Assembly (NCBI GenBank): GCA_028708845.1
Contig: JAQVXZ010000009.1
Coordinates: 1 to 64,000 of the forward strand
DNA: 64,000 bases
Direction of reading: 5' to 3'
Origin: Bacteroidales bacterium
GTDB taxonomy: Bacteria; Bacteroidota; Bacteroidia; Bacteroidales; P3
Below the pieces are notes generated by a model, which made no database searches, was not told the DNA's origin, and saw only the letters and a program-made list of their open reading frames with translations. Of this stretch, positions 5,060 through 45,740 are shown one piece after another; positions within the stretch are counted from its first letter, which is position 1, and each line of letters starts with the position of its first letter. Both the position numbers and the translations under genes were made by a program.

Positions 5060-5552
5060 GCTAATAATCATTTTATTATTATCAATAAACTCATTTGGTT
5101 TTGCACAAAAAAATGGTTATTTTAATAATCTCGATTCTGCTCTTGTATATCCTAATTCAGTTATTACGCTTGACTTAGAAAAACAAAAACTAAAGCAAGT
5201 TCCAAAAGAGATTCTAATGTTCCCAAACTTAGATAAGCTAATTCTTAAAAGAAACTACATTAAAGAAGTTCCAAAAGAATTATCGAGTCTTTCAAGGCTT
5301 AGATATTTAGATTTATCATCTAATAATATCACGGAATTACCAAAGGAGCTGAGTGCATTAAAACTTGATACATTAATTATTTGGGACAATAGAATTAGGA
5401 GTTTCCCAAATGAGTTTAAAGAAATGTCAGAAACCCTCAAATACTTAGACCTTAGAGCCATTCAAATGAATAAAGAAGAGCAAAAAGAAATCAAAGCCCT
5501 GTTTCCAAAAACCAAAATAAGACTTGCTCACCCCTGCAATTGCAATAGATAA
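5052..5552 (+). CDS. Secreted leucine-rich repeat protein
   Basis: 166 residues with an N-terminal signal peptide (LIIILLLSINSFGFAQ, cleavage probably after the AQ near residue 19). The body is four to five leucine-rich repeats of the LxxLxLxxNxIxxLP type (LDKLILKRNYIKEVP; LRYLDLSSNNITELP; LDTLIIWDNRIRSFP). The tail carries CNC near the C-terminus. LRR folds bind proteins or other ligands; the partner is unknown. It is translationally coupled to ribF by an 8-base overlap, which suggests co-transcription, but no functional link to flavin synthesis is evident. Confidence 0.8.
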   Translation: MNKLIIILLLSINSFGFAQKNGYFNNLDSALVYPNSVITLDLEKQKLKQVPKEILMFPNLDKLILKRNYIKEVPKELSSLSRLRYLDLSSNNITELPKELSALKLDTLIIWDNRIRSFPNEFKEMSETLKYLDLRAIQMNKEEQKEIKALFPKTKIRLAHPCNCNR

Positions 5553-7651: not shown

Positions 7652-8059
7652 TTACTGAATAACCAATCCTTTTGGAACAGGGTACTTGAATGCAAATCCA
7701 GCAGACTTCAATTTGTTTTTGAACCTAACGTTAGGATAGAAATTCACCCTTAAGCGTTTTATGCTTTGAGCATTAGCTTCATTCTCTGTTTCCACTGCCT
7801 TAGAATTAAGGAATGGCGTGAAGTTCCCGAGCTGTTTTAATTGAACTGTGATGCCATTCATTGTTGCATCAGCAATAACCATTTGAAGAGCAGCCAATGC
7901 CGACAATACGTCATTGTAAGCCAATGAGCTCATCTCAGCAATTCTGTCAGCCAACTGTTCTTGACTCATAACACCATTGCGGTTGATAACACAGATGTAC
8001 TTATTGCCTGGATTTAAGCCAACTGAAATTGCGCGTTTTACAATATTGTAATTCACCAT
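7652..8059 (-). CDS. HU-related DNA-binding protein (TIGR01201 type)
   Basis: A 135-residue member of the Bacteroidota HU-related family. The N-terminus (VKRAISVGLNPGNKYICVI) and the SQEQLADRIAEMSSLAYNDVLSALAALQMVIADA helix pair form the HU-like dimer core. QLKQLGNFTPFLN matches the LG.F.P.L segment, and the C-terminus (LRVNFYPNVRFKNKL) is the DNA-contacting arm region. In Bacteroides, genes of this type commonly neighbour a VirE/BT4734 primase, as here, where the helicase/primase pair lies 580 bases upstream on the same strand. A -7 element is at 8157-8164. It probably shapes DNA for that cassette or acts as a nucleoid protein. Confidence 0.85.
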   Translation of the reverse strand: MVNYNIVKRAISVGLNPGNKYICVINRNGVMSQEQLADRIAEMSSLAYNDVLSALAALQMVIADATMNGITVQLKQLGNFTPFLNSKAVETENEANAQSIKRLRVNFYPNVRFKNKLKSAGFAFKYPVPKGLVIQ

Positions 8060-8156
8060 ACTAAAATGCGATTAACCTTCAAATTACTATCGCCAGGTTT
8101 TTTGTTCATAATTGTGGACTTGTGAGCATAAACATATATGCTTTTAAAATCTTTTA

Positions 8157-8164
8157 CAAAGATA
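8157..8164 (-). promoter_or_regulatory. -7 promoter element of the HU-related gene
   Basis: The minus strand reads TATCTTTG, about 98 bases upstream of the start at 8059, implying a leader of roughly 90 bases. Confidence 0.5.
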
Positions 8165-8280
8165 CAAAATCTTTTTCATATAACCAAATAAATATCAAGA
8201 AATTATCAATAATTTTACTATAAAAATTGATGCTTTTAATTCCTATTTTTTCTATAAAAAAGAACCTGATTTTAAAAAAA

Positions 8281-8322
8281 AAGACGCCGACTTTTTGGAA
8301 AAAGACGCCGACTTTTTGGAAA
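8281..8322. repeat. Tandem 21-bp repeat, two perfect units
   Basis: Two identical 21-bp units (AAGACGCCGACTTTTTGGAAA) at 8281-8301 and 8302-8322, followed by more diverged units (AAGAGCTTGATTTGTGACAG and AACCCTGATTTT). A short open frame crosses it but its sequence is just the repeat read as protein (TPTFWKK twice). Confidence 0.85.
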
Positions 8323-8523
8323 AAGAGCTTGATTTGTGACAGAAAAACCCTGATTTTTTTTGAAATCGTAGGCTTGTTTTTCTCCTTTCTTTTCTTATTT
8401 TATTTAATTCTTAAAATTAAATATTAGATATTAAATAAAACAATAGAGGGTTGAATATATTTATTATTAGTTCTAAAATTAGGATTAGAGAATAGTGAAA
8501 AAGAGAAAGGAGAATAACAAAAA

Positions 8524-8624
8524 GTTGCCGAAGTTGCCGAAAGTGCCTAAGAATGAAAAGTGTTTCAGAATAAAAAAATAAAAATAGTTTTCAAAAAATA
8601 GGCACTTTCGGCACTTTGGGCAAC
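8524..8624. repeat. Iteron-like 9-bp repeats forming an inverted pair
   Basis: The left arm (8524-8548) is GTTGCCGAA, GTTGCCGAA, AGTGCCT; the right arm (8600-8624) is its near-complement built of GGCACTTTC, GGCACTTTG, GGCAAC. The arms match at about 22 of 25 positions and are separated by 51 AT-rich bases. It lies 17 bases past the end of the helicase gene. It could be an intrinsic terminator for that gene, or a set of protein-binding iterons. Confidence 0.7.
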
Positions 8625-8640
8625 TAAGAAGCAAAATTAA

Positions 8641-10047
8641 TTAGAATGGAGGTTCTTTTTCATCAGGAAAGTAATCATCTGCCTCTAATAAATTTGCTTT
8701 ATTTTCAATGATTTGCTTTTCTTGAGCAATAATTTCATTTTTCTTACTATCAATTTCAAGCCATACATAAGTTTGATTACCAGTTCCTCCTTTCTCAACT
8801 TTAAAACCTAAAGATTTCATTCTGCTTGAAAATGTTCTATTACTCATTGTTCTAAATCCATTTCCATTTGAGAAAGTATCAAATTCATTATATAGTTGAG
8901 ATAGAAGTTGTTTGTTTTTTAGTGAAGGAATATACATCTTCTCATCTAAGAACATACTTACATTATCCGATTCTATTCTATATTCATTTTGCAAAGCTTC
9001 AATAGTAGGACTATAAGTGAATTTCTTGTTTTCTCTAAGTCTTCTAACTCCCTCCAATAACCAATTCAAGATGCCTGCCGACTCCTGACAAAGCTCCTCT
9101 TTTAAATTTGGATTCACTTTTTCTTTTGGAATTGTTACATTAAAAGGAATAAAACGAAACCTACGATAGAAGCCTTCACTAAAATCATCACTTTGAGGCA
9201 TTGAATTAGAAGCCATAAGAGATTGAGGATAGTTTGTAGTTGAATAAGAGTCTTGATATAATCTTTTAACATTAAGAGCTTCTCCTGATATATAACTTTT
9301 CAAAGCCGAAGTATCAAAAATCTTAGAGCTATTCTCATAAGAAATATTTATTAGCTTATTCTCCATTTGCTGAAGAGCAAGCCCATCATTCTTTGTAATA
9401 TTAATTAAAGGAACATGACTTACATTTTCATTCCCAAGAACATTTGTAATTACCTCAAGGCTAAGACTCTTCCCATTCCTTCCATTTCCAAATAGATAGA
9501 TAATCTTTTCTAAATGCATTTTGCTTAAAGGATAAGCCAATGCTTCTTGAATTGCTATTTGCAAGTCCTCTTGTGGAAGTACTTCTTTAATAAATGCTTT
9601 CCATTTTGGGCAATCTGCCTGAGCATCATAATCATAGGACAGACAATGAAACACAAAATCATCCTTTCGATGCTCTCTAAAAACCATATTATCCAATTCA
9701 TAACTACCGTTTTTAAAATTAATCACTCCTTTATTTGAACTTATTTCTGTGTAGAAATCCAGCATAGCTTGATTATATAAATCATCAGCTTTTTTATAAG
9801 GCTTATAATATTTTTCATCAAAACCCCTTTCATAAGCAAAGTTTTGAATAAATTTCTTAATTAAATATTCATCTTTCTTTTGCCAATAGCCATCCTCATA
9901 GAAATAGAAATTATTATTAAAAATTAGTTCATCAGAACTTTGTTTTAGTTGATCAATAATAAGAGTAATAACCTCAGATTTTTCAGGAATAAAAGAAATA
10001 CTCTTTCTTCTATTTTCATTATTATAAACTGCTAAACTATTTTCCAT
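8641..10047 (-). CDS. Phage/plasmid-type superfamily 3 helicase (D5/P4-like)
   Basis: 468 residues. Around 105-175 is a D5-type N-terminal region (GVINFKNGSYELDN; CPKWKAFIKEVLP), followed by an SF3 helicase core with Walker A GNGRNGKS at 187-194, a Walker B-like INISYENS segment, and the SF3 sensor region PQSLMASNSMPQSDDFSEGFYRRFRFIPF. The C-terminus resembles a winged helix (FRTMSNRTFSSRMKSLGFKV). Such proteins unwind origins of phages, plasmids and integrative elements. The start overlaps the stop of the upstream primase-like gene (TAATG), so the two are translationally coupled. No integrase or capsid gene is nearby, which suggests an orphan or decayed element. Confidence 0.88.
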   Translation of the reverse strand: MENSLAVYNNENRRKSISFIPEKSEVITLIIDQLKQSSDELIFNNNFYFYEDGYWQKKDEYLIKKFIQNFAYERGFDEKYYKPYKKADDLYNQAMLDFYTEISSNKGVINFKNGSYELDNMVFREHRKDDFVFHCLSYDYDAQADCPKWKAFIKEVLPQEDLQIAIQEALAYPLSKMHLEKIIYLFGNGRNGKSLSLEVITNVLGNENVSHVPLINITKNDGLALQQMENKLINISYENSSKIFDTSALKSYISGEALNVKRLYQDSYSTTNYPQSLMASNSMPQSDDFSEGFYRRFRFIPFNVTIPKEKVNPNLKEELCQESAGILNWLLEGVRRLRENKKFTYSPTIEALQNEYRIESDNVSMFLDEKMYIPSLKNKQLLSQLYNEFDTFSNGNGFRTMSNRTFSSRMKSLGFKVEKGGTGNQTYVWLEIDSKKNEIIAQEKQIIENKANLLEADDYFPDEKEPPF

Positions 10048-11132
10048 TATGCAATATTTTCGTTATTAGATTTATTGATTAGATATTGATTATATGGCTT
10101 GTACTCATTTTTAAATCCACTTCTAACACATTTTGTGATTTCTTTTTCATCAAAATCAGATGCCCCAAAACGATTTAGAGCATATTGAATAACTTCCTCT
10201 TGACTTATACCAAAGAACTTTGCTTGCATAGCCGTTTGAAAAACAATACAATTACGACTTTGAATAATTCCTTTAAAGAAAACATCAACAATATTATCCA
10301 TTAACTGATAGCTTGGAATTGAAGAAGTATTGCTTTCACAGTACTCTTTCATAACTTGTTTAGGTTTAGAACAATAAGACCAAATAATTTCAAAGCAAGA
10401 TGAATTAGGATTGTAAAATATCTTTTCGTCCCCACTTATATAAGTCCCACCTTGAATATTAGTAGCGCATTTATCAATATTCAATTCATACTTAGTAGAA
10501 TAGTATTTTTCAACAAAAGAATAAGCAGTTTTATGAAAGTCTTTAAGTTTCTCAATCAATAACTTCCTTTCCTCGTTTGATATATCTTCCTTTAACCTAA
10601 GATTAATATCTTTAATAGCTTGAGGAAGTTTAACCTCAACAATTATCTTCAAGCCATAGTTTTTTCCTTTTGGAGAAAAGAAAGCAGCTTTAGTAAATAA
10701 GTCTTTAGAAATAATATTTTTAACTAAATCATACTTTTCTCTCAAATAAGGATTGTCCTTATCATCTATGTCTAAAACTATCAACCCAGTGTATTTGATA
10801 ATATTATTATCAGAACGCTTAGGGTACATGAAGCAAGTTATACTTATAAGAGGCAACTGGGCTTTCATTTGCTTATACCTTTGCTCTAATTCCTCATCTC
10901 CTGTTTCGTAATACTCTTTAATATTCTTCCTCATTTCAATAAAAAAAGGATTAGAGTTATTACTTATGATTTGAGAAACCAATTCCTCCAAATCAACAAC
11001 AATAAAATCTTTAGTTGAAGTTGCCATCTCCCATTTTTGGACTTTATTCTCAAAATCCTTTGGAAGAATATTATTATAAGGCTTTCCTTTGATAGACGTT
11101 ATTACTCCTTCATTTACTTTTTTTTGTTCCAT
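10047..11132 (-). CDS. BT4734/BF3469 (VirE N-terminal) family primase-like protein
   Basis: 361 residues. The central part matches the BT4734/VirE N-terminal domain of Bacteroidota primases: CFMYPKRSDNNIIKYTGLIVLDIDDKDNP, then FFSPKGKNYGLKIIVEV and YELNIDKCATNIQGGTYISGDEKIFYNP in order. The LDIDD acidic pair and the SPKGKNYGLK strand are reminiscent of archaeo-eukaryotic primase active sites. It is expected to prime replication for the adjoining SF3 helicase, in many genomes as one fused protein and here as two coupled genes. A -7 element lies at 11210-11217. The catalytic assignment is an inference from the family. Confidence 0.82.
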   Translation of the reverse strand: MEQKKVNEGVITSIKGKPYNNILPKDFENKVQKWEMATSTKDFIVVDLEELVSQIISNNSNPFFIEMRKNIKEYYETGDEELEQRYKQMKAQLPLISITCFMYPKRSDNNIIKYTGLIVLDIDDKDNPYLREKYDLVKNIISKDLFTKAAFFSPKGKNYGLKIIVEVKLPQAIKDINLRLKEDISNEERKLLIEKLKDFHKTAYSFVEKYYSTKYELNIDKCATNIQGGTYISGDEKIFYNPNSSCFEIIWSYCSKPKQVMKEYCESNTSSIPSYQLMDNIVDVFFKGIIQSRNCIVFQTAMQAKFFGISQEEVIQYALNRFGASDFDEKEITKCVRSGFKNEYKPYNQYLINKSNNENIA

Positions 11133-11785: not shown

Positions 11786-11853
11786 CTATATAATATTAGA
11801 TTATTTAATAAAAAATAATTCCCAAATCATCACTTTAGTATAAAAAAAGATTG

Positions 11854-11861
11854 TATATTTG
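11854..11861 (+). promoter_or_regulatory. -7 promoter element of the SIMPL gene
   Basis: TATATTTG, an exact TAnnTTTG match; a TTTAG about 20 bases upstream could be the -33 contact. The predicted leader of about 85 bases carries the hairpin at 11889-11939. Confidence 0.6.
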
Positions 11862-11888
11862 TCGCATATTTCTTAAGGGACTTAAAAA

Positions 11889-11939
11889 GGGAACTTCTGT
11901 CCTTTAAAAAATAAATAATATATATTATTAGAAGTTCCC
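11889..11939 (+). other. Leader hairpin before the SIMPL gene
   Basis: A perfect 10-bp inverted repeat (GGGAACTTCT 11889-11898 with AGAAGTTCCC 11930-11939) encloses 31 AT-rich bases. The right arm ends about 14 bases before the start codon, so folding could affect ribosome access. It may instead be an operator. Confidence 0.55.
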
Positions 11940-11953
11940 AATAGTAAATAGAA

Positions 11954-12907
11954 ATGAAAAAGACTTTTATTTTAGTAATAAGTATTATCTTAAGTAATCT
12001 ACTTTTTGGACAAGCCTCTGGAAATATCAACTATCAGAATCAAACAAGATATCCTGAACAAAACATTAGTGTTTCTAACCCCTCAACATCAAATATTTTA
12101 TTAAGTGTGAAAGGATTAGCAAATATTAAAGCAGATTCATATGTAGCAATCTTTAGCGTAAATCAAGTTGGTAAGACAAGCCAGGAGGTAAATGATTTAA
12201 TTGATAAAAGGATAAAACAATCGGTAGATGAAATAAATAAACACAAGGAAACAGAGGTATTTATAGATATGATCTCATTTGTTCCTATCTATGAATTTGA
12301 AATAGAAAAGAAGATATTTAGCAAAACAAACTATAATGAAATTCCAAAATCCTTTGAATTAAAAAAGAATATTCATATAAAATATCATGACCAAAATCAA
12401 CTAAATGATTTTATTAGTATCCTATCAAACCAAGATATATACAATTTAGTAAGAGTAGATTATTTCGCTAACAACCAAGATTCTATAAAAAAACAACTAA
12501 TGAATAAGTCGAAACAAATACTCCAAGAAAAAATAAAAACCTATCAATCATTATTAGGAATTTCCTTTGACACATTAGATAAGAGCCTATCCGATGGATA
12601 TAAAGTTCTTTTCCCAGTTGAAATGTATAAATCATTTGAAGCATATAATAGTTCTTCGTTAAATGAAAAGAAATCTCAAAATATAAATTTAGCAGACAAA
12701 TCCCCCACCCTATACTACCAACCAATAGTAAATAAGGAATTTGACCTTGTAATCAATCCAATAATAACAGAACCCGTTATTCAAATAATGTACGAGATAA
12801 AATTACTAATAAACAAAGAAAAGACAAATAAAGAAATCAACCCTCAATCCAAAAAAGAATACATCCTAATAAGTCCTAATGGAGAGTTGAAAAATATTAA
12901 CTTGTAA
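11954..12907 (+). CDS. Secreted SIMPL (DUF541) domain protein
   Basis: 317 residues with a signal peptide (TFILVISIILSNLLFGQ) ending near residue 21. The rest has the SIMPL pattern: an opening strand (LLSVKGLANIKADSYVAIFSV), a helix with repeated polar residues (DLIDKRIKQSVDEINKH), and a second alpha/beta lobe (IKKQLMNKSKQILQEKIKTYQSLLGI). SIMPL proteins are periplasmic or outer-membrane linked and assemble into oligomers; their cargo is mostly unknown. The gene has its own promoter and a 10-bp leader hairpin, and is bounded downstream by REP-like hairpins. The family call is moderately sure. Confidence 0.7.
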   Translation: MKKTFILVISIILSNLLFGQASGNINYQNQTRYPEQNISVSNPSTSNILLSVKGLANIKADSYVAIFSVNQVGKTSQEVNDLIDKRIKQSVDEINKHKETEVFIDMISFVPIYEFEIEKKIFSKTNYNEIPKSFELKKNIHIKYHDQNQLNDFISILSNQDIYNLVRVDYFANNQDSIKKQLMNKSKQILQEKIKTYQSLLGISFDTLDKSLSDGYKVLFPVEMYKSFEAYNSSSLNEKKSQNINLADKSPTLYYQPIVNKEFDLVINPIITEPVIQIMYEIKLLINKEKTNKEINPQSKKEYILISPNGELKNINL

Positions 12908-12921
12908 TTATAAAATGATTT

Positions 12922-13107
12922 CCGTCGTGCGGGATTTCCGACTCCCGCACTATATTACTATATGGATTTGTAATCTGATATTTATTTCCTTCGTGCGGGA
13001 TTTCTTTGCTGTGCAAAGCAACAAGGTCGATTTCCTACTCCCGCACTATATTATTATAATGATTTCTTGCTTAGGGCAAGCGGTAAACCGATAAGTAATC
13101 TGATATT
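12922..13107. repeat. REP/MITE-like hairpin element, copy E1 (rearranged)
   Basis: Begins CCGTCGTGCGGGATTTCC and contains two CGGGATT...CCCGCAC hairpins, then the GCTTAGGGCAAGCGGTAAACCG word and GTAATCTGATATTTC. It is related to elements at 44582, 45530 and 55015 but is shuffled and lacks the CGACGG end. It ends about 10 bases before the left 251-bp repeat. Confidence 0.65.
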
Positions 13108-13116
13108 TCATTAAAA

Positions 13117-13367
13117 AACCACGAAAATGAAAAATCTTTTATTCTATTCCATAGCCTTTATCATTACAATGGTTATTATATTGTTTATGTCTTATCAAGA
13201 TGAGAAACAAGCTCTGTTAGTCAATATTGGTTAGGTATGTGTTATTTACATGGATTAGGAACTGATACCAATTTAAAGGAATATGATTATTGGATTAATG
13301 AATCATCAAAGAATGGTTATAAATTTAAAGAATAATCTTTCGGATAACATATCCTAATAATAAAGAA
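13117..13367 (+). repeat. Left 251-bp direct repeat flanking the restriction island
   Basis: Aligns without gaps to 19803-20053, also 251 bp and in the same orientation, with only a handful of mismatches (about 7 seen by eye). It carries a broken small gene at 13127-13335. Outside the two ends the flanks differ. Confidence 0.9.
13127..13335 (+). pseudogene. Broken Sel1-repeat type protein gene, left copy
   Basis: The first frame encodes 35 residues, mostly one membrane-spanning or signal segment (LLFYSIAFIITMVIILFMSY), and stops at 13234. An overlapping frame continues YWLGMCYLHGLGTDTNLKEY and on to a stop at 13335. This reads like one Sel1-type TPR repeat (LGxCYxxGxGxxxNxxxAxxW). A frame change thus separates the anchor from the repeat. 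The same disruption is present in the second copy, so it predates the duplication. Expression as two tiny peptides is unlikely. Confidence 0.6.
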
Positions 13368-13527
13368 TTGCGGCATAACATATACCGCACGATGGAAACA
13401 CAATAATTACTCTCTCTCTTTATTGCGAGACATAGGCATTGCTTATCGGTTTGCTGCTTTAGTCAGAAAGAATCATGATAAACATATTTATTAAACTAAA
13501 AAGTCAAGTTAAATTATTTTTTATTTG
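13368..13527. other. Intergenic region with partial REP words
   Basis: Contains a TTGCGGCATAACATATACCGCACG hairpin just after the repeat and a GCTTATCGGTTTGCTGCTTTAG word related to the REP-like elements. No gene is seen. The mod promoter follows at 13528. Confidence 0.5.
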
Positions 13528-13535
13528 TATCTTTG
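13528..13535 (+). promoter_or_regulatory. -7 promoter element of the mod-res operon
   Basis: TATCTTTG, an exact TAnnTTTG match 27 bases before the mod start. It lies inside the island, so the operon carries its own promoter. Confidence 0.6.
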
Positions 13536-13561
13536 GGGATTAAAATGAATATGAAAAAATT

Positions 13562-15208
13562 ATGCCTGAATTAACTTGGATTGGAAAAGAAAAAGTTATT
13601 ACACATCATCAAGATGTACCTTATAGAGTATTAGAACATAAATATGGTTTTAGTGTTGAAGGTGGAGAAAGAGAAAAAGAAACTAAGAGTGGGAATAAAA
13701 TTATTCATGGTGATAATCTTGAAGCCTTAAAATCATTACTTCCTGAATATGAAGGGAAAATCAAATGTATCTATATAGATCCTCCGTATAATACGGGAAA
13801 TGAGAAATGGGTGTATAACGATAATGTAAACCATCCAAAGATTAAGAAATGGCTTAATGAAGTTGTAGGAACAGAAGGAGAAGACCTAACCCGCCACGAC
13901 AAATGGCTTTGCATGATGTACCCCCGCCTAAAACTCCTACACAAACTCCTCTCCGAAGACGGCGCAATCTTTATATCAATAGACGACAACGAACAAGCCA
14001 ACCTAAAACTAATCTGCGACGAAATCTTTGGTAAAAGTAATTTTGTTACAAACTTTATATGGGAAAGAAAAAAGAAACCAGCATTTTTAAAGAAGCAAGT
14101 AGGGTCAATAACTGAATATATAATGTGTTTTGCTAAAAACTACAACATGCTAAATTCTTTTACTTCTTCTGATTTTAAAACTACTGAAGGGAAAAAATAT
14201 CCAATTAATAATGCAGGAAATGGAATGGCAATATTAACTTTTCCACCGAACTCAGTAAAATTTGGATATAAAAATAGTGTAATTGAACCTCAAGATATGT
14301 CTGAAGGCAATATTAAGACAGAATTACTAACTAAAGTAATAATTGAAAATAATTACAACATTAATGAATTCCAATTAAATGGAGAGTGGAGATATTCTCA
14401 GAATACTCTTGATGAAATTATTAATAATGGAGAAGAAATAACAATATCAAAAATTCCTTTTAGACCTAATCATATAAAAAATGGAGGAGAAGATAAAAAG
14501 ATTCACAACTTTTTAAGTTATAGAACATATAATATTCAAACAAATGAGGATGCAAGTTTAGAAATACAAAATATTTTTAAAGATAAGGTATTTGATTTTT
14601 CTAAACCTAATAATTTGATTGGATTTTTTATTGATATTATTAATGACAAAGATTCTATTATTTTAGATTCTTTTGCTGGAAGTGGTACTACTGGGCATGC
14701 GGTTTTGAATTTGAATAAGTTGGATGGGGGGAATAGGAAATTTATTTTGGTGGAAATGGAAGATTATGCTCAGGATATTACTGCGGAAAGGGTTAAGAGG
14801 GTTATTAAAGGTTATGGAGAAGGGAATAAGAAGGTTGAGGGAACTGGTGGAGAGTTTGATTATTATGAGTTGGGGGAAAGGCTATTTTTAGAGGATAATA
14901 ATTTGAATGAGGAAGTGGGAGAAGAAAAGATTAGAGAATATATTTATTACACTGAAACTAAAGAATTCCTTTCAAGAAAAAGAACAAAAGAGAATTATTA
15001 TTTACTTGATAATTATTTAAATACTGGATATTATTTCTACTATGAAAAAGATAGTTTGACTGCTCTAAGTGTTGACACTACAAATATCGTTACTCAAAAG
15101 GCTGAACAATATGTTATTTATGCTGATGTTTGTCTTTTGGATAAAGAGTTTATGCTTAAAAATAATATTATCTTTAAGAAGATTCCAAGGGATATAAAGC
15201 GTTTCTAA
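13562..15208 (+). CDS. mod: Type III restriction-modification methyltransferase (Mod)
   Basis: DNA adenine methyltransferase and specificity subunit of a type III system. The 548 residues have catalytic motif IV DPPYNTG at 73-79 and, later, the SAM-binding motif I SFAGSGTTG near 370, the beta-class order of type III Mod proteins. The region between them (about 165-350) is the presumed target-recognition domain. A stretch at about 13882-14030 is rich in C-ending codons (CTC, GAC, AAC), unlike the A/T-ending codons around it, and 14690-14890 is G-rich, so the gene looks mosaic. It leads a co-directional set: ORF6N-PLD gene 2 bases on, then res. It has its own promoter. Confidence 0.95.
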   Translation: MPELTWIGKEKVITHHQDVPYRVLEHKYGFSVEGGEREKETKSGNKIIHGDNLEALKSLLPEYEGKIKCIYIDPPYNTGNEKWVYNDNVNHPKIKKWLNEVVGTEGEDLTRHDKWLCMMYPRLKLLHKLLSEDGAIFISIDDNEQANLKLICDEIFGKSNFVTNFIWERKKKPAFLKKQVGSITEYIMCFAKNYNMLNSFTSSDFKTTEGKKYPINNAGNGMAILTFPPNSVKFGYKNSVIEPQDMSEGNIKTELLTKVIIENNYNINEFQLNGEWRYSQNTLDEIINNGEEITISKIPFRPNHIKNGGEDKKIHNFLSYRTYNIQTNEDASLEIQNIFKDKVFDFSKPNNLIGFFIDIINDKDSIILDSFAGSGTTGHAVLNLNKLDGGNRKFILVEMEDYAQDITAERVKRVIKGYGEGNKKVEGTGGEFDYYELGERLFLEDNNLNEEVGEEKIREYIYYTETKEFLSRKRTKENYYLLDNYLNTGYYFYYEKDSLTALSVDTTNIVTQKAEQYVIYADVCLLDKEFMLKNNIIFKKIPRDIKRF

Positions 15209-15210
15209 AT

Positions 15211-16146
15211 ATGGAAAAGACAAAAAAGAGCATGAGGTCACAAATTGTGACCTCACCTGAAAAACAAGAAATCAATACTCAAATTGTTTCTACAAATGAT
15301 ATTGAGAGAAAGATCCTAAATATTCGTAATCTACAAGTTATTTTAGATAAAGATTTAGCTTTTTTTTATGAGGTTAAACCTATAAGACTTAGGGAACAAT
15401 TGAAAAGAAATCCCAATCGCTTCCCCTCAGACTTTGTTTTTCAATTAACTAAGAATGAGGTTGATTATTTGGTATCGCAAAATGCGATACCTTCCATACA
15501 AAGTCTTGGTGGTTATCTTCCATATGCTTTTACAGAACAGGGAGTTGCTGCTGTTTCGGCTGTATTAAAATCTGAAAAAGCTGCTGAGGTTAGTATTAAT
15601 ATTATTCGCACCTTTGTTGCAATGCGTAAATTTATTCTTACTAATGCTCAAGTTTTTCAAAGATTAGAATCATTAGAGATAAAACAAATAGGAAATGATA
15701 AGAACTTTGAAAGAATATTTAATGCTCTTGATCAAAACAAAGGTGTAAAAACTCAGGGTATATTCTTCGATGGACAGATTTATGATGCTTATAGTTTTGT
15801 TGTTGATTTGATACGGAAGGCTGAAAAAGAAATTGTTCTTATTGATGGTTATGTTGATAATGATGTTTTAGATATGCTTTCAAAAAAACAGACAAATGTA
15901 AGTGTAATATTATATACTTTGCCTAATGCAAATATTAATAAAACAGATATTAAAAAGTTTAATGCTCAATATCCAACATTGACAGATAATAGAACAGCAA
16001 AAGTACACGATAGATATTTGATAATAGATAATAATGAGCTTTATACTATTGGTGCTTCATTAAAAGACTTAGGTAAGAAGTGCTTTTCTTTTACCAAAAT
16101 GGAAGAGAAAGGTTTAATTACTGAATTATTAAATAGATTGGTTTAA
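15211..16146 (+). CDS. ORF6N domain protein with C-terminal PLD-like domain
   Basis: 311 residues. Residues 30-140 hold the ORF6N DNA-binding domain found in phage and mobile-element regulators (RNLQVILDKDLAFFYEV; RNPNRFPSDFVFQLT; LPYAFTEQGVAAVSAVL). Residues 185-305 resemble a phospholipase D-like domain (KEIVLIDGYVDNDVLDML; VHDRYLIIDNNELYTIGASL), with the histidine near 265 as the HKD-like residue; the usual HxK lysine is an arginine one place on. It lies 2 bases after mod and 11 before res, clearly in the operon. A role as regulator or DNA-binding nuclease accessory is possible but unproven. Such genes are recurrent passengers inside restriction loci. Confidence 0.85.
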   Translation: MEKTKKSMRSQIVTSPEKQEINTQIVSTNDIERKILNIRNLQVILDKDLAFFYEVKPIRLREQLKRNPNRFPSDFVFQLTKNEVDYLVSQNAIPSIQSLGGYLPYAFTEQGVAAVSAVLKSEKAAEVSINIIRTFVAMRKFILTNAQVFQRLESLEIKQIGNDKNFERIFNALDQNKGVKTQGIFFDGQIYDAYSFVVDLIRKAEKEIVLIDGYVDNDVLDMLSKKQTNVSVILYTLPNANINKTDIKKFNAQYPTLTDNRTAKVHDRYLIIDNNELYTIGASLKDLGKKCFSFTKMEEKGLITELLNRLV

Positions 16147-16157
16147 ATAATTAAATT

Positions 16158-18785
16158 ATGGAATTAAAATCATACCAACAAGAAGTTATTAATGACTTAA
16201 CAACATATCTTGAGGAATTAAATATTACAAGTGATATAAGTCAAGCTTTTAAAAATTTATGGGAAAGCAAAGGAGTTTATTTTTCTACTTTAGAGGATAG
16301 ATATTTAAGACCTTATGATAATTCGATTAAAGGAGTCCCAAGAGTTACAGTTAAAGTTCCTACAGCTGGAGGTAAAACATTTATTGCATGTAATTCTATA
16401 AAAACGATATTTGATAAACTACCAGCTGAAAAGACTAAAGTTGTTGTTTGGTTTGTTCCTTCCGATACCATTTTGCAACAAACTTATAAGAACTTAAATG
16501 ATACTTCTCATCCTTACAGACAAAAGATTGATTCTCATTTTGGAAGTGCTGTTAGGGTATATGATAAACAAACTTTGTTGTATGGGCAAAACTTTAACCC
16601 AATTGAGGTAAGAGAACAATTAAGTATTTTAGTTTTAAGTATTCAATCTTTTGCTTCAAATAAAAAAGAAGGCAGGAAGGTTTTTCAAGAAAATGAAAAC
16701 CTTGTTAGCTTTACAAAGGATAAAAGTTATAACACTAATCAAATTGAGGATGCAGAAGACAGTGCTTTAATTCAAGTAATTGCTAATTTAAACCCTGTTG
16801 TTATTATTGATGAAAGCCATAATTATGAATCTAATTTGAGATTAGATTTACTCAATTTAATTAATCCAAGTTTTATTTTAGACCTTACGGCTACTCCAAG
16901 AGAGAAATCAAATATTATTAGTTTTGTTGATGCAATGAAACTAAAGAAGAATAATATGGTTAAATTGCCTGTTATTGTTTATAAGAATAGAAATACAGAA
17001 GAAGTTATTTCAAGTGCTATTGAGTTTCAGAAGAAGTTGGAAGAGGTTGCAATAGAGAATGAAAAAGAAACTGGATTATATATTAGACCAATTGTTCTTT
17101 TTCAGGCTCAACCAAAGACTGATGATGATAATATTACTTTTGACAAAATTAAAGGGCAACTTATTGAGGCTGGTATTCCTGAAAATCAAATTAAAATAAA
17201 GACTTCAAAATATGATGAGATAAAAAATATTGATTTGTTGAGTAGGGATTGTGAAATTAGATTTATTATTACTATTAATGCTTTAAAAGAGGGTTGGGAT
17301 TGTCCTTTTGCTTATATATTGGCTTCTTTAGCAAATAAAACTTCAAATGTTGATGTTGAACAAATATTAGGTAGAACTCTTCGACTTCCTCATGTTACAA
17401 AACATAGTAATCATTTATTAAATAGTTCTTATGTTTTTTCCTCTTCATCCGATTTTCAAAAAACTTTAGAGAATATTATTAGTGCTTTGAATAGAGCAGG
17501 GTTTAGTAAAAAAGATTATAGATATAAAGAAGTTGAAACTAAAGTTGAAAAGGGAGATGATTTAACTCTATTATTTGAAGAGCCAATTCAACAAACAATT
17601 AATGAAAATGATATTGATTTTGATGTTGAAATTGATACAGAAAAAATAAAAGAATATTCACAAACTCCAGAATCAAGGCAATTTGTTGAAAATATTACTA
17701 CAATTGCAAATGAGAAATCAATGGAATATGAAAAGGAAGTTGAGGAATCAATAAAAGAAGAACAATCAATACCAACTGATATAATAGATAAAGTGAAGAC
17801 AAGTAAATTAAAAGATAGTTTTAAAGAAGAAGTAAAAGGCATAAAACTACCTGCTTTTTACATCAAATCTAATATAGAATCATTATTTAATAGCAAAGAT
17901 GAATCAATTAAATTAACTAAAAATTATTTACTAAATGGATTTGATTTAAGTACGCAGGATAAAAATATAGATTTAACTATTACTTCTACAGATATGGCAA
18001 AGATTGATTTGAGTGAAAGACTTAAAGATGAATTTGTGCCTCAATATCAAAAGATGTCTGCAAACGTAAGGGAAGGATTTGTTGAATATTTTAAAGGACT
18101 TACTCCACAAGGAAAGAAAAATAAGATAGTTGAAAGCATTTCAAGAATTATTGGAAGCATTAATGAGATTTCTCAACCTGATATAAAAAACTATGTTAGC
18201 GATATTATTTCAAAATTAGAAGGTGATAAAATTAATGAGATTGCCAATGATGAATTTGGTTATGCACAAGTTGTTAGCCGAAAGATTGAGCAATTGTGTA
18301 ATAAGTATGCTCAAGAGCAATTTTATAGATTATTAGATTTAGGATTAATTAAGTGTGAAGATAGTTTTGAATTTCCTGAAAGGATTATACCTAAAGATAG
18401 TATTGGTTATATTCAAAAGAATCTATATACAGAAGAAGATTCAATGAATCCTTTTGAAGAGAGAATTATTACTCAGATTGCAGGATTAGATAATGTTGTT
18501 TTTTGGCATCGAAATTTATCAAAAGGAAGAGGTTTTATGATAAATGGATTTATAAATCATTACCCTGACTTTATTGTGAAACTAAGAAATGGAAAGATAT
18601 TATTAATTGAAACTAAAGGAGACCATTTAGATAATTCAGATAGTATGGATAAAATTAGATTAGGAAAAATGTGGGAATCAAAAGCAGGTGATAATTTCCG
18701 TTACTATATGGTTTTTGATAGTAAAAAATTAGATGGAGCAAAAAGTATAGGTGAATTAATTGATATTGTAAAGAATATTCAATAA
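16158..18785 (+). CDS. res: Type III restriction enzyme, Res subunit
   Basis: ATP-dependent translocase and endonuclease subunit that, with Mod, cuts DNA carrying unmethylated inverted sites. The 875 residues contain helicase motif I PTAGGKTF near 68, DEAD-type motif II DESH near 218, motif III DLTATP, motif VI QILGRTLRLP near 400, and a C-terminal PD-(D/E)XK nuclease (YPDFIVKLRNGKILLIETKG, near 800-820). All key motifs are intact, so the enzyme should be active. Spacing of 11 bases from the ORF6N gene and the shared strand indicate one operon with mod. AT-rich codon use is uniform along it. Confidence 0.96.
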   Translation: MELKSYQQEVINDLTTYLEELNITSDISQAFKNLWESKGVYFSTLEDRYLRPYDNSIKGVPRVTVKVPTAGGKTFIACNSIKTIFDKLPAEKTKVVVWFVPSDTILQQTYKNLNDTSHPYRQKIDSHFGSAVRVYDKQTLLYGQNFNPIEVREQLSILVLSIQSFASNKKEGRKVFQENENLVSFTKDKSYNTNQIEDAEDSALIQVIANLNPVVIIDESHNYESNLRLDLLNLINPSFILDLTATPREKSNIISFVDAMKLKKNNMVKLPVIVYKNRNTEEVISSAIEFQKKLEEVAIENEKETGLYIRPIVLFQAQPKTDDDNITFDKIKGQLIEAGIPENQIKIKTSKYDEIKNIDLLSRDCEIRFIITINALKEGWDCPFAYILASLANKTSNVDVEQILGRTLRLPHVTKHSNHLLNSSYVFSSSSDFQKTLENIISALNRAGFSKKDYRYKEVETKVEKGDDLTLLFEEPIQQTINENDIDFDVEIDTEKIKEYSQTPESRQFVENITTIANEKSMEYEKEVEESIKEEQSIPTDIIDKVKTSKLKDSFKEEVKGIKLPAFYIKSNIESLFNSKDESIKLTKNYLLNGFDLSTQDKNIDLTITSTDMAKIDLSERLKDEFVPQYQKMSANVREGFVEYFKGLTPQGKKNKIVESISRIIGSINEISQPDIKNYVSDIISKLEGDKINEIANDEFGYAQVVSRKIEQLCNKYAQEQFYRLLDLGLIKCEDSFEFPERIIPKDSIGYIQKNLYTEEDSMNPFEERIITQIAGLDNVVFWHRNLSKGRGFMINGFINHYPDFIVKLRNGKILLIETKGDHLDNSDSMDKIRLGKMWESKAGDNFRYYMVFDSKKLDGAKSIGELIDIVKNIQ

Positions 18786-18843
18786 AAACTTATTTGGAGA
18801 TTTTTATCATTACATGTTTGAAAAATTATAAAGTTTGTAGATT

Positions 18844-19764
18844 ATGAGCAAAATAACATTATACAAATTAGAAGCTGATAATAGAGCTGAAATCGTTAGT
18901 GAGAAGCCTTTTAAGTTAGAAAGAGATATGCAAAGGGTTTTTGAGGATAATTTGGGTTTGATTATGGGCTTGGAAATGGTTAAGTCGGAGTTTACAATCA
19001 AGGATAAGAGAATTGATACATTGGCTTTTGATAGGCAAAGTAATTCTTTTGTGATTATTGAATACAAGAGAGATAAAAACAATTCTGTTTTTGACCAAGG
19101 TATTACTTACTTAAATCTTATGCTTAATTATAAGGCTGATTTTGTTTTGGAGTATAATGAGAACATGAAAAACAATTTGCTTAGGGATGATGTTGATTGG
19201 TCTCAATCAAGAGTTGTATTTGTTAGTTCAGATTTTACAGAAAATCAAATTCAAGCTACCAATTTCAAGGATTTTGCTATTGAGCTTTGGGAAGTAAAGA
19301 GATATAGCAATAATACTATTTCGATTAATAATATTGGAAAATCAAAATCAGCACCATCAATTAAACCAATTTTAGAAAAGAATAATACTTATCAAGATAT
19401 TTCAAAGGAAATAAAGGTTTATACAGAAGAAGATCATTTGCAAAGTAAGTCCGATGAGATAATTGAATTATATGAGAAGTTCAAGAATGCAATTCTTAAT
19501 TTGAAAGAGGGGATTGAAGTTGTTTATAGAAAATACTATATAGGCTTTAAATTGAATAATAGTAATATAAGTGATGTTGAAATTCAGTCTAAATCATTAA
19601 AGTTATATATTAATCTAAACAAAGGACACTTAGATGATCCAAAAGGACTAATGAGAGATATTTCAAATGTTGGACATTGGGGAAATGGAGATTATCAAAT
19701 TATTGTAAAGAATGATGATGATTTGGAATATATAATGAGTTTGATTAAACAGGCTATAAAATAG
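18844..19764 (+). CDS. PD-(D/E)XK nuclease-like protein with DUF5655 C-terminus
   Basis: 306 residues. The N-terminal half has a PD-(D/E)XK pattern, D58 in KRIDTLAFD, then E73 and K75 in VIIEYKR, the DUF91/NucS-like arrangement. The C-terminal 100 residues (NLKEGIEVVYRKYYIGFKLN; KSLKLYINLNKGHLDDPKGL; GHWGNGDYQIIV) match the DUF5655 type. No helicase or specificity domain is present. It follows res by 58 bases on the same strand and ends 38 bases before the right repeat, so it travels with the restriction island. It could be an extra nuclease or a sensor of modified DNA; the biochemical role is not established. Confidence 0.82.
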   Translation: MSKITLYKLEADNRAEIVSEKPFKLERDMQRVFEDNLGLIMGLEMVKSEFTIKDKRIDTLAFDRQSNSFVIIEYKRDKNNSVFDQGITYLNLMLNYKADFVLEYNENMKNNLLRDDVDWSQSRVVFVSSDFTENQIQATNFKDFAIELWEVKRYSNNTISINNIGKSKSAPSIKPILEKNNTYQDISKEIKVYTEEDHLQSKSDEIIELYEKFKNAILNLKEGIEVVYRKYYIGFKLNNSNISDVEIQSKSLKLYINLNKGHLDDPKGLMRDISNVGHWGNGDYQIIVKNDDDLEYIMSLIKQAIK

Positions 19765-19802
19765 TAAGGATAAATATCAGCACAACGATTATAAAAGTAA
19801 GA

Positions 19803-20053
19803 AACCATGAAAACAAAAAATCTTTTATTCTATTCCATAGCCTTTATCATTACAATGGTTATTATTTTGTTTATGTCTTATCAAGATGAGAAACAAGCTC
19901 TGTTAGTCAATATTGGTTAGGGATGTGTTATTTACATGGAATAGGTACTGATACCAATTTAAAGGAATATGATTATTGGATTAATGAATCATCAAAGAAT
20001 GGTTATAAATTTAAAGAATAATCTTTCGGATAACATATCCTAATAATAAAGAA
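19803..20053 (+). repeat. Right 251-bp direct repeat flanking the restriction island
   Basis: The partner of 13117-13367: same length, same orientation, about 97 percent identical by eye. The unit spacing is 6686 bp and encloses all four island genes. Confidence 0.9.
19807..20021 (+). pseudogene. Broken Sel1-repeat type protein gene, right copy
   Basis: Like the left copy: a 37-residue frame with a single membrane segment stopping at 19920, then an overlapping frame with YWLGMCYLHGIGTDTNLKEY ending at 20021. It has one extra codon pair at the start because its ATG lies six bases further upstream. The frame break is identical to the left copy. Confidence 0.6.
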
Positions 20054-20079
20054 GTGCGGGAGTACAAATCCCGCACTTC
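20051..20079. repeat. REP-like hairpin, copy E2
   Basis: A perfect 11-bp stem (GAAGTGCGGGA 20051-20061 with TCCCGCACTTC 20069-20079) at the very end of the right 251-bp repeat. It may also act as a terminator for the island. Confidence 0.7.
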
Positions 20080-20226
20080 AAAATAACTTATGCAAAAATG
20101 TTAAGAATATTTTAAACAATGTCCCAATCTTTTGCCCAATTATGCATTAGTTAATAGTATTTGTATAGAAAAAGACTTGATTTGTGCATCTTTTAGACCA
20201 AGTTTACAGAACAAAGAGCAAAAAAA

Positions 20227-44466: not shown

Positions 44467-44581
44467 TATTTCTCCATCATGCAGGATATATTCTTATTGT
44501 TAAAATAGATTGCTTGCATTATCTTGACATTCTTTTCCATTACTGATTACTAATCTATTTACCGTTTGCCTTAGTAAGACT

Positions 44582-44737
44582 CCGTCGTGCGGGATTTGTA
44601 ATCTCGCACTTCTTTACTATTAGGATTTTCAATCCGATACTTATTCATATTTCTTTGCATTATCTTGACTTTGTTTATATTACGGATTACAAATCCTAAT
44701 AGTAATGATGAGGTGGAGTGCAAATCCACCTCGACGG
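44582..44737. repeat. REP/MITE-like multi-hairpin element, copy E3
   Basis: A 156-bp element with CCGTCG at the left and CGACGG at the right. Inside are a GTGCGGGATT...CTCGCAC hairpin, a TATTAGGATT...AATCCTAATA long-range pairing with AATCCGATA against TACGGATT, and a GAGGTGGA...TCCACCTC hairpin. E4 (45530-45740) is a close copy in direct orientation. No coding capacity is credible. Confidence 0.8.
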
Positions 44738-44787
44738 AATTACTTACATCATCAACTACAAATCTGATACACTACCCACTACCGACA

Positions 44788-45504: not shown

Positions 45505-45529
45505 ACTTTACTGTTTTTTGTCTATTATT

Positions 45530-45740
45530 CCGTCGTGCGGGATTTGTAATTCCGCACTTCTTTACTATTAGGATTTTCAATCCGATACTTATTTATATTT
45601 CTTTGCATTATTTTGACTTTGTTTATATTACGTATTACATCATCGGCTTGCCGCTTGCCTTAGCAAGAATCCTAATAGCAATTAAGAGGTGGAATACTTA
45701 TCGGTTTACCGCTTGCAAGGCAAGTAATCCACCTCGACGG
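45530..45740. repeat. REP/MITE-like multi-hairpin element, copy E4
   Basis: A direct copy of E3: the first 110 bases match closely, including CCGTCG and TATTAGGATTTTCAATCCGATAC. It is longer because of extra GCTTGCCTTAGCAAG and TTATCGGTTTACCGCTTGC words, and ends CCACCTCGACGG. A long open frame crosses it but is only the repeat read as protein. Confidence 0.8.

Follow-up and report, generated by a model that had tools for sequence, protein, structure and literature searches.

A predicted type III restriction-modification island lies between REP-ended direct repeats in a Bacteroidales genome

A four-gene island within the window – the whole stretch of 64,000 nucleotides analysed here – encodes a predicted type III restriction-modification (RM) system together with two accessory defence-candidate genes, and is bracketed by two direct repeats. 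The repeats are copies of one small element: the remnant of a dead Sel1 gene that ends in the palindrome of a dispersed REP family (Table 1). Our preferred explanation, to which we give about an even chance, is that recombination between members of this family brought the RM module together with a resident REP-ended element. The locus is a variant of known RM mobility, and it suggests that REP-ended elements act as joining points at which defence genes are added, lost and exchanged.

Table 1. Features of the island, its repeats and the associated transposase genes (positions are those of the window unless a locus is named)
Feature	Position	Strand	Characteristics
HU-like, D5_N and BT4734-like genes	7652..11132	-	gene order repeated upstream of the C14 copy
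Outer left-end type REP, CCGTCGTGCGGG... tag and hairpin	12917..12982	-	covariance model match C41:12921-12976; hairpin -9.7 kcal/mol, z -3.8
Second left-end REP, long-loop variant	12984..13067	-	covariance model match 12987-13067 and sequence
Left repeat copy (L)	13112..13390	+	decayed Sel1 gene (start codon region, internal stop, Sel1 fragment), then right-end REP
Right-end REP of L	13340..13396	+	hairpin GCGGCAT..ATACCGC, identical in G009
RM operon leader	13397..13561	+	TATCTTTG -7-like motif; 13397-13548 common (85%) to the type I RM operon leader on C58
mod, type III DNA methyltransferase, 548 aa	13562..15208	+	PF01555; PADLOC MTase_III, 599 bits
ORF6N protein with PLD-like C-terminal part, 311 aa	15211..16146	+	PF10543; PADLOC PDC-S05, 370 bits
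res, type III restriction helicase-nuclease, 875 aa	16158..18785	+	PF04851; PADLOC REase_III, 234 bits
PD-(D/E)XK-like and DUF5655 protein, 306 aa	18844..19764	+	PF18899; PADLOC PDC-S18, 452 bits
Right repeat copy (R)	19798..20076	+	decayed Sel1 remnant as in L; without left-end REP
Right-end REP of R	20028..20079	+	outer end within 3 bp of the chromosomal junction; hairpin -14.8 kcal/mol, z -8.1
RAYT genes	L020 3557-4102 and 6123-6671; L093 1572-2117; L094 157-705

The direct repeat is 279 nt long, its two copies agreeing at 95% without gaps at a spacing of 6,686 bp; a match of this length and identity cannot have arisen by chance. An earlier note on this DNA had described two gap-free segments of 251 bp in the same orientation, about 97% identical and 6.69 kb apart, and measurement agrees: segments 13117-13367 and 19803-20053 differ at seven positions (13122, 13128, 13129, 13180, 13236, 13255 and 13260), an identity of 97.2%. 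That note was also correct in placing mod, the ORF6N-PLD gene, res and the PD-(D/E)XK-DUF5655 gene between the repeats and in seeing no transposase or integrase: a Pfam scan that covered the four island genes and ORFs of at least 80 aa in the 8.6-12.9 kb flank detected no domain of either kind. The locus was taken from a draft genome assembly, and it is on that assembly that the two repeat copies rest.

Assignment to type III follows from an N6/N4-type Mod methyltransferase lying beside a Res helicase (PF01555 and PF04851, and the PADLOC calls). PADLOC also places the ORF6N-PLD and DUF5655 proteins among phage-defence candidates (PDC-S05 and PDC-S18). Two further features were read by eye: the PLD-like part of the ORF6N protein (HDRYLIID), which has no Pfam match, and the C-terminal PDFIVKLRNGKILLIETKG of Res, which resembles PD-(D/E)XK and for which no domain model gave a match.

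A central issue is the nature of the repeated element. In each copy the frame that opens at the start codon hits a stop, the Sel1 part runs on out of frame, and the 3′ end is a dispersed REP palindrome. Four copies were found. Three belong to this genome, namely L, R and a copy on contig C14 that adjoins a type I hsdM; the fourth comes from the sister species G009. Because all four carry the identical defect, the element must have spread after the Sel1 gene died. The earlier note's suggestion that the island had inserted into a Sel1-type gene finds no support here, and insertion into an intact Sel1 gene is rejected: the dead frame is common to all copies and none is split by the island. Longer, open Sel1 relatives are also present in G002 and G009. 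A left-end REP accompanies three of the four copies and is missing from R; within the window the left-end REPs precede L only. The Sel1 remnant itself is rare, the genome holding three copies, two at the island and one by another RM gene. Matches to the repeat or its REP, sought in 41 genomes, were found within the genus and none beyond it.

Differences among the copies are informative. Pairwise identity ranges from 95 to 97%, and the site patterns form a mosaic: L agrees with the G009 copy in the REP hairpin and at its 5′ end, whereas its middle part agrees with R. Moreover, the differences between L and R are concentrated in the REP hairpin (6 of 28 positions, versus 8 of 251 elsewhere; Fisher p = 0.001). 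Judged from these sequences, recombination or gene conversion among pre-existing copies fits better than a fresh duplication, without this amounting to proof.

The REP ends belong to a much larger family. A covariance model built from 20 REPs, with the best 150 candidates scored, recognized among these 50 REPs at 26 separate sites in the genome. They are dispersed palindromes, partly arranged as inverted doublets, with hairpin z-scores from -8.1 to -2.6; a CGTC tag stands beside an 8-bp stem, and the sequence beside the large hairpin (CCTTATA versus CCTAATA) separates left ends from right ends. The earlier note had allowed that the repeats might simply be members of a common family; in part they are, given the third copy on C14 and REP ends at 26 sites.

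Intact RAYT genes number four in this genome (90.6-98.2% nucleotide identity), and each lies between CGTC-tagged REPs; flanking REPs on both sides were recorded at C48, C2 and C12. RAYTs have, to our knowledge, usually been reported as single-copy genes. Their identity is backed by NCBIfam NF047646 (REP_Tyr_transpos; 100.9 bits against a cut-off of 80), and the motifs NHLH, WQ and YIHNNP, together with a length of about 180 aa (181 aa), fit subclass 2.6 of the TnpA_Y1 transposases, a group found mostly in Bacteroidetes and flanked by atypical REP structures (PMC6006769). The likeness to that subclass extends to REPs with copies elsewhere in the genome; the present case differs in having four near-identical RAYT copies in a single genome and REP doublets that flank passenger genes, RM operons included. 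A survey in 2013 reported CGTC REPs for which there was no linked transposase (PMC3733652): the REPs described here share the CGTC beside an 8-bp stem and the inverted dimers, but have a longer loop (some 6-7 nt) and stand on both sides of RAYT genes. Integron sites of the attC type were considered for the short repeat arrays and dropped, the repeats sitting directly downstream of RAYT genes.

In the sequence read, which covered the surroundings of REP sites and selected loci, several gene cassettes are bounded by REPs, and RM genes stand among the neighbours of REP sites. Besides the island in the window, such sites adjoin a type I operon and a DUF5655 gene fragment (C58), a truncated D12 methylase with an HNH gene (C1), hsdM (C14), hsdM and hsdS (C34), a DpnI/DpnA-like pair (C31; names by eye except for the PF01555 methylase), a type IIG enzyme and a PLD-helicase gene (C28), PglZ and BrxL (C57), and an AbiO/Nhi-like gene (C1). 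Five of 12 methyltransferase loci, drawn from two Pfam families, lie no more than 2 kb from a REP, where about 0.7 would be expected (fraction 0.056; p = 3e-4 in a post hoc test, made after the pattern had been noticed). Modules with differing cores share leaders: 152 bp at 85.5% in the case of the type III operon in the window and the type I operon on C58, while the DpnI/DpnA-like pair on C31 and the type I genes on C34 sit behind a common REP and leader (121 bp, 95%). In G005 a type II set and a DUF5655 gene of 91% identity lie between REPs. In G010 the association between RM genes and REPs proved weak on inspection, most of the REP sites inspected flanking small lipoprotein genes.

A second bracket within the window shows what may happen between REPs. 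Direct REP doublets at 44581-44738 and 45529-45730 (111 nt, 95%) enclose a single gene of 238 aa; at the orthologous site in G004 the right doublet is present together with an older left one, and the gene they enclose is a different, zinc-ribbon-like one. The cargo has therefore changed between the same REP sites.

Relatives without the island delimit what has been gained or lost. In G004 the left and right flanks are joined directly, and the point at which homology passes over to the right flank lies no more than 3 bp from where the right REP ends on its outer side. The insert relative to this genome, at about 6.95-20.08 kb, is larger than the repeat bracket and takes in the HU-like, D5_N and BT4734-like genes. 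DoxX, which is part of the core at this locus in most of the genus, is absent from G004, which makes its left side an unclean control; the site is usable for the right boundary. The earlier note had proposed searching for a related genome with a single repeat and no island, and G009 supplies one at about the same place: it shares DoxX and the HU tail with the window on the left, where its flank is cut by the end of the contig, and the right flank from position 20213 on, which one element adjoins. Between the REP of G009 and this common flank the island is absent, and the DUF5655 gene was not found in the G009 genome. The junction of G009 nonetheless lies some 125 bp to the right of that in the window, and with its contig ends a clean empty site was not obtained. 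What G009 demonstrates is that the element occurs singly, with no island; it does not establish this very allele as the ancestor of the window. A strain-level pair of empty and filled sites was not found among the relatives.

An orthologous RM operon in G006 (90.6% nucleotide identity) has a REP directly after res and none before mod, and is not bracketed; like the third copy on C14, it lies near HU and primase-type genes. Its mod (L123 12986-14611) matches that of the window at about 90% DNA identity except at 14045-14643, a diverged stretch that is probably an exchanged target recognition domain. The paralogous HU, D5_N and BT4734 order, seen again at L019 3157-6471, in both places precedes a REP-Sel1 element and an RM gene in matching relative orientation.

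How, then, did the bracket come about? On the explanation we favour, the locus would first have held a single resident element, as that of G009 does; an incoming RM module bearing another copy would have recombined homologously with the resident one to leave one copy on each side, and the pair would stay a substrate for RecA-type loss or tandem amplification. We infer the recombination event, its direction and any present-day instability from several observations: the C14 copy, lying beside a type I hsdM and behind a matching HU, D5_N and BT4734 order; the single element without the island in G009 and the switch in G004 at the right REP end; the hairpin difference and mosaic patterns; and the shared leaders of RM modules with differing cores, the change of cargo at the second bracket and the closeness of methyltransferases to REPs. 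The earlier note's idea of recombination between the repeats is likewise plausible, as is loss or gain of the island with the repeat, given a sister species (G009, 93% nucleotide identity) with one copy and no island. Against recombination stand the want of an empty/filled strain pair, the offset junction in G009, the unbracketed operon in G006 and the lipoprotein genes beside the REPs of G010; RM genes and REPs may do no more than occupy the same variable regions, and a simple duplication followed by gene conversion involving other REPs could account for the difference between the L and R hairpins. Duplication of that kind is the substance of an alternative that we regard as unlikely, though it deserves to be taken seriously: the RM unit would have inserted at a resident REP-Sel1 remnant and duplicated about 279 bp, as has been described for RM systems of Helicobacter. 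It predicts the final structure – a direct target repeat on both sides of the RM unit and a single copy in a relative – and insertions of such kind are cited for all RM types (PMC3031569). A few of 60 related type III loci have tight direct repeats: at one, in another Bacteroidales MAG (L177), a related res is followed by a direct repeat of the 3′ end of a host gene (5457-5512 and 10858-10913; 56 bp, 91%), and at another (L215) the direct repeat measures 272 bp at 87%. In the insertions of Nobusato et al. 2000, to go by their citation in PMC3031569, an RM unit without its own transposase similarly lies between direct target repeats. Here, however, the repeat is no unique target: further copies of it exist within a REP-ended family. 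The unlike hairpins and mosaic site patterns weaken the duplication of a target segment that the earlier note had entertained.

The REP ends raise a further alternative, in which a RAYT acting on the REPs at the two outer limits, the left-end one preceding L and the right-end one following R, would have moved the 7-kb segment as single-stranded DNA. Four intact RAYT genes with flanking REPs, ends that can be told apart, a right boundary at the REP end and several REP-bounded cassettes all speak for such composite transposition. We nevertheless hold it to be improbable: compared with G004, the insert starts on its left near 6.95 kb rather than at the left REP, the 7-kb unit was not found a second time and no excision product is known, and RAYT units are reported not to transpose whole (PMC6006769). 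Least probable of all, in our estimation, is that REP-Sel1 elements landed independently on either side of an island that arrived otherwise (as cargo of the HU, D5_N and BT4734 genes, for instance), the bracket having no role. The dispersal of REPs (50 matches among the best 150 candidates scored) is in keeping with this, as are the HU and primase-type genes near the third copy and the G006 operon and the missing bracket of the latter; but the rarity of the Sel1 remnant, confined to the island and one RM gene, and the common orientation of the two copies in the window argue the other way. The island resembles IS-flanked RM composite units (PMC3031569), which likewise have direct mobile-element repeats on both sides and so allow co-integration, loss and tandem amplification; the flanks here differ in being non-coding REP-ended remnants rather than insertion sequences bearing a transposase.

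It has long been asked how RM systems that lack their own transposase move. Were short REP-ended elements to supply portable homology or transposition ends, the defence repertoire could change by cassette exchange at predictable places; REP/RAYT systems would gain a concrete effect, and CGTC-tagged REPs would be linked to a transposase. A wider proposal, which we put forward tentatively and consider doubtful, is that RAYT-linked REPs constitute a cassette system in the genus, in which REP ends with promoter-bearing leaders would bracket exchangeable genes, including type I, II and III RM operons, and cargo would be swapped at fixed sites between REP doublets, either by RAYT or by REP-REP recombination.

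The idea that the SIMPL-domain gene to the left of the island (11940-12921) belongs to the unit was rejected: C1 holds a 99% copy of this gene (L059 6613-7594), which points to a history of its own. On C1 an 8.1-kb stretch with the truncated D12 methylase and HNH gene separates the SIMPL gene from its upstream sequence (window 11802-11945).
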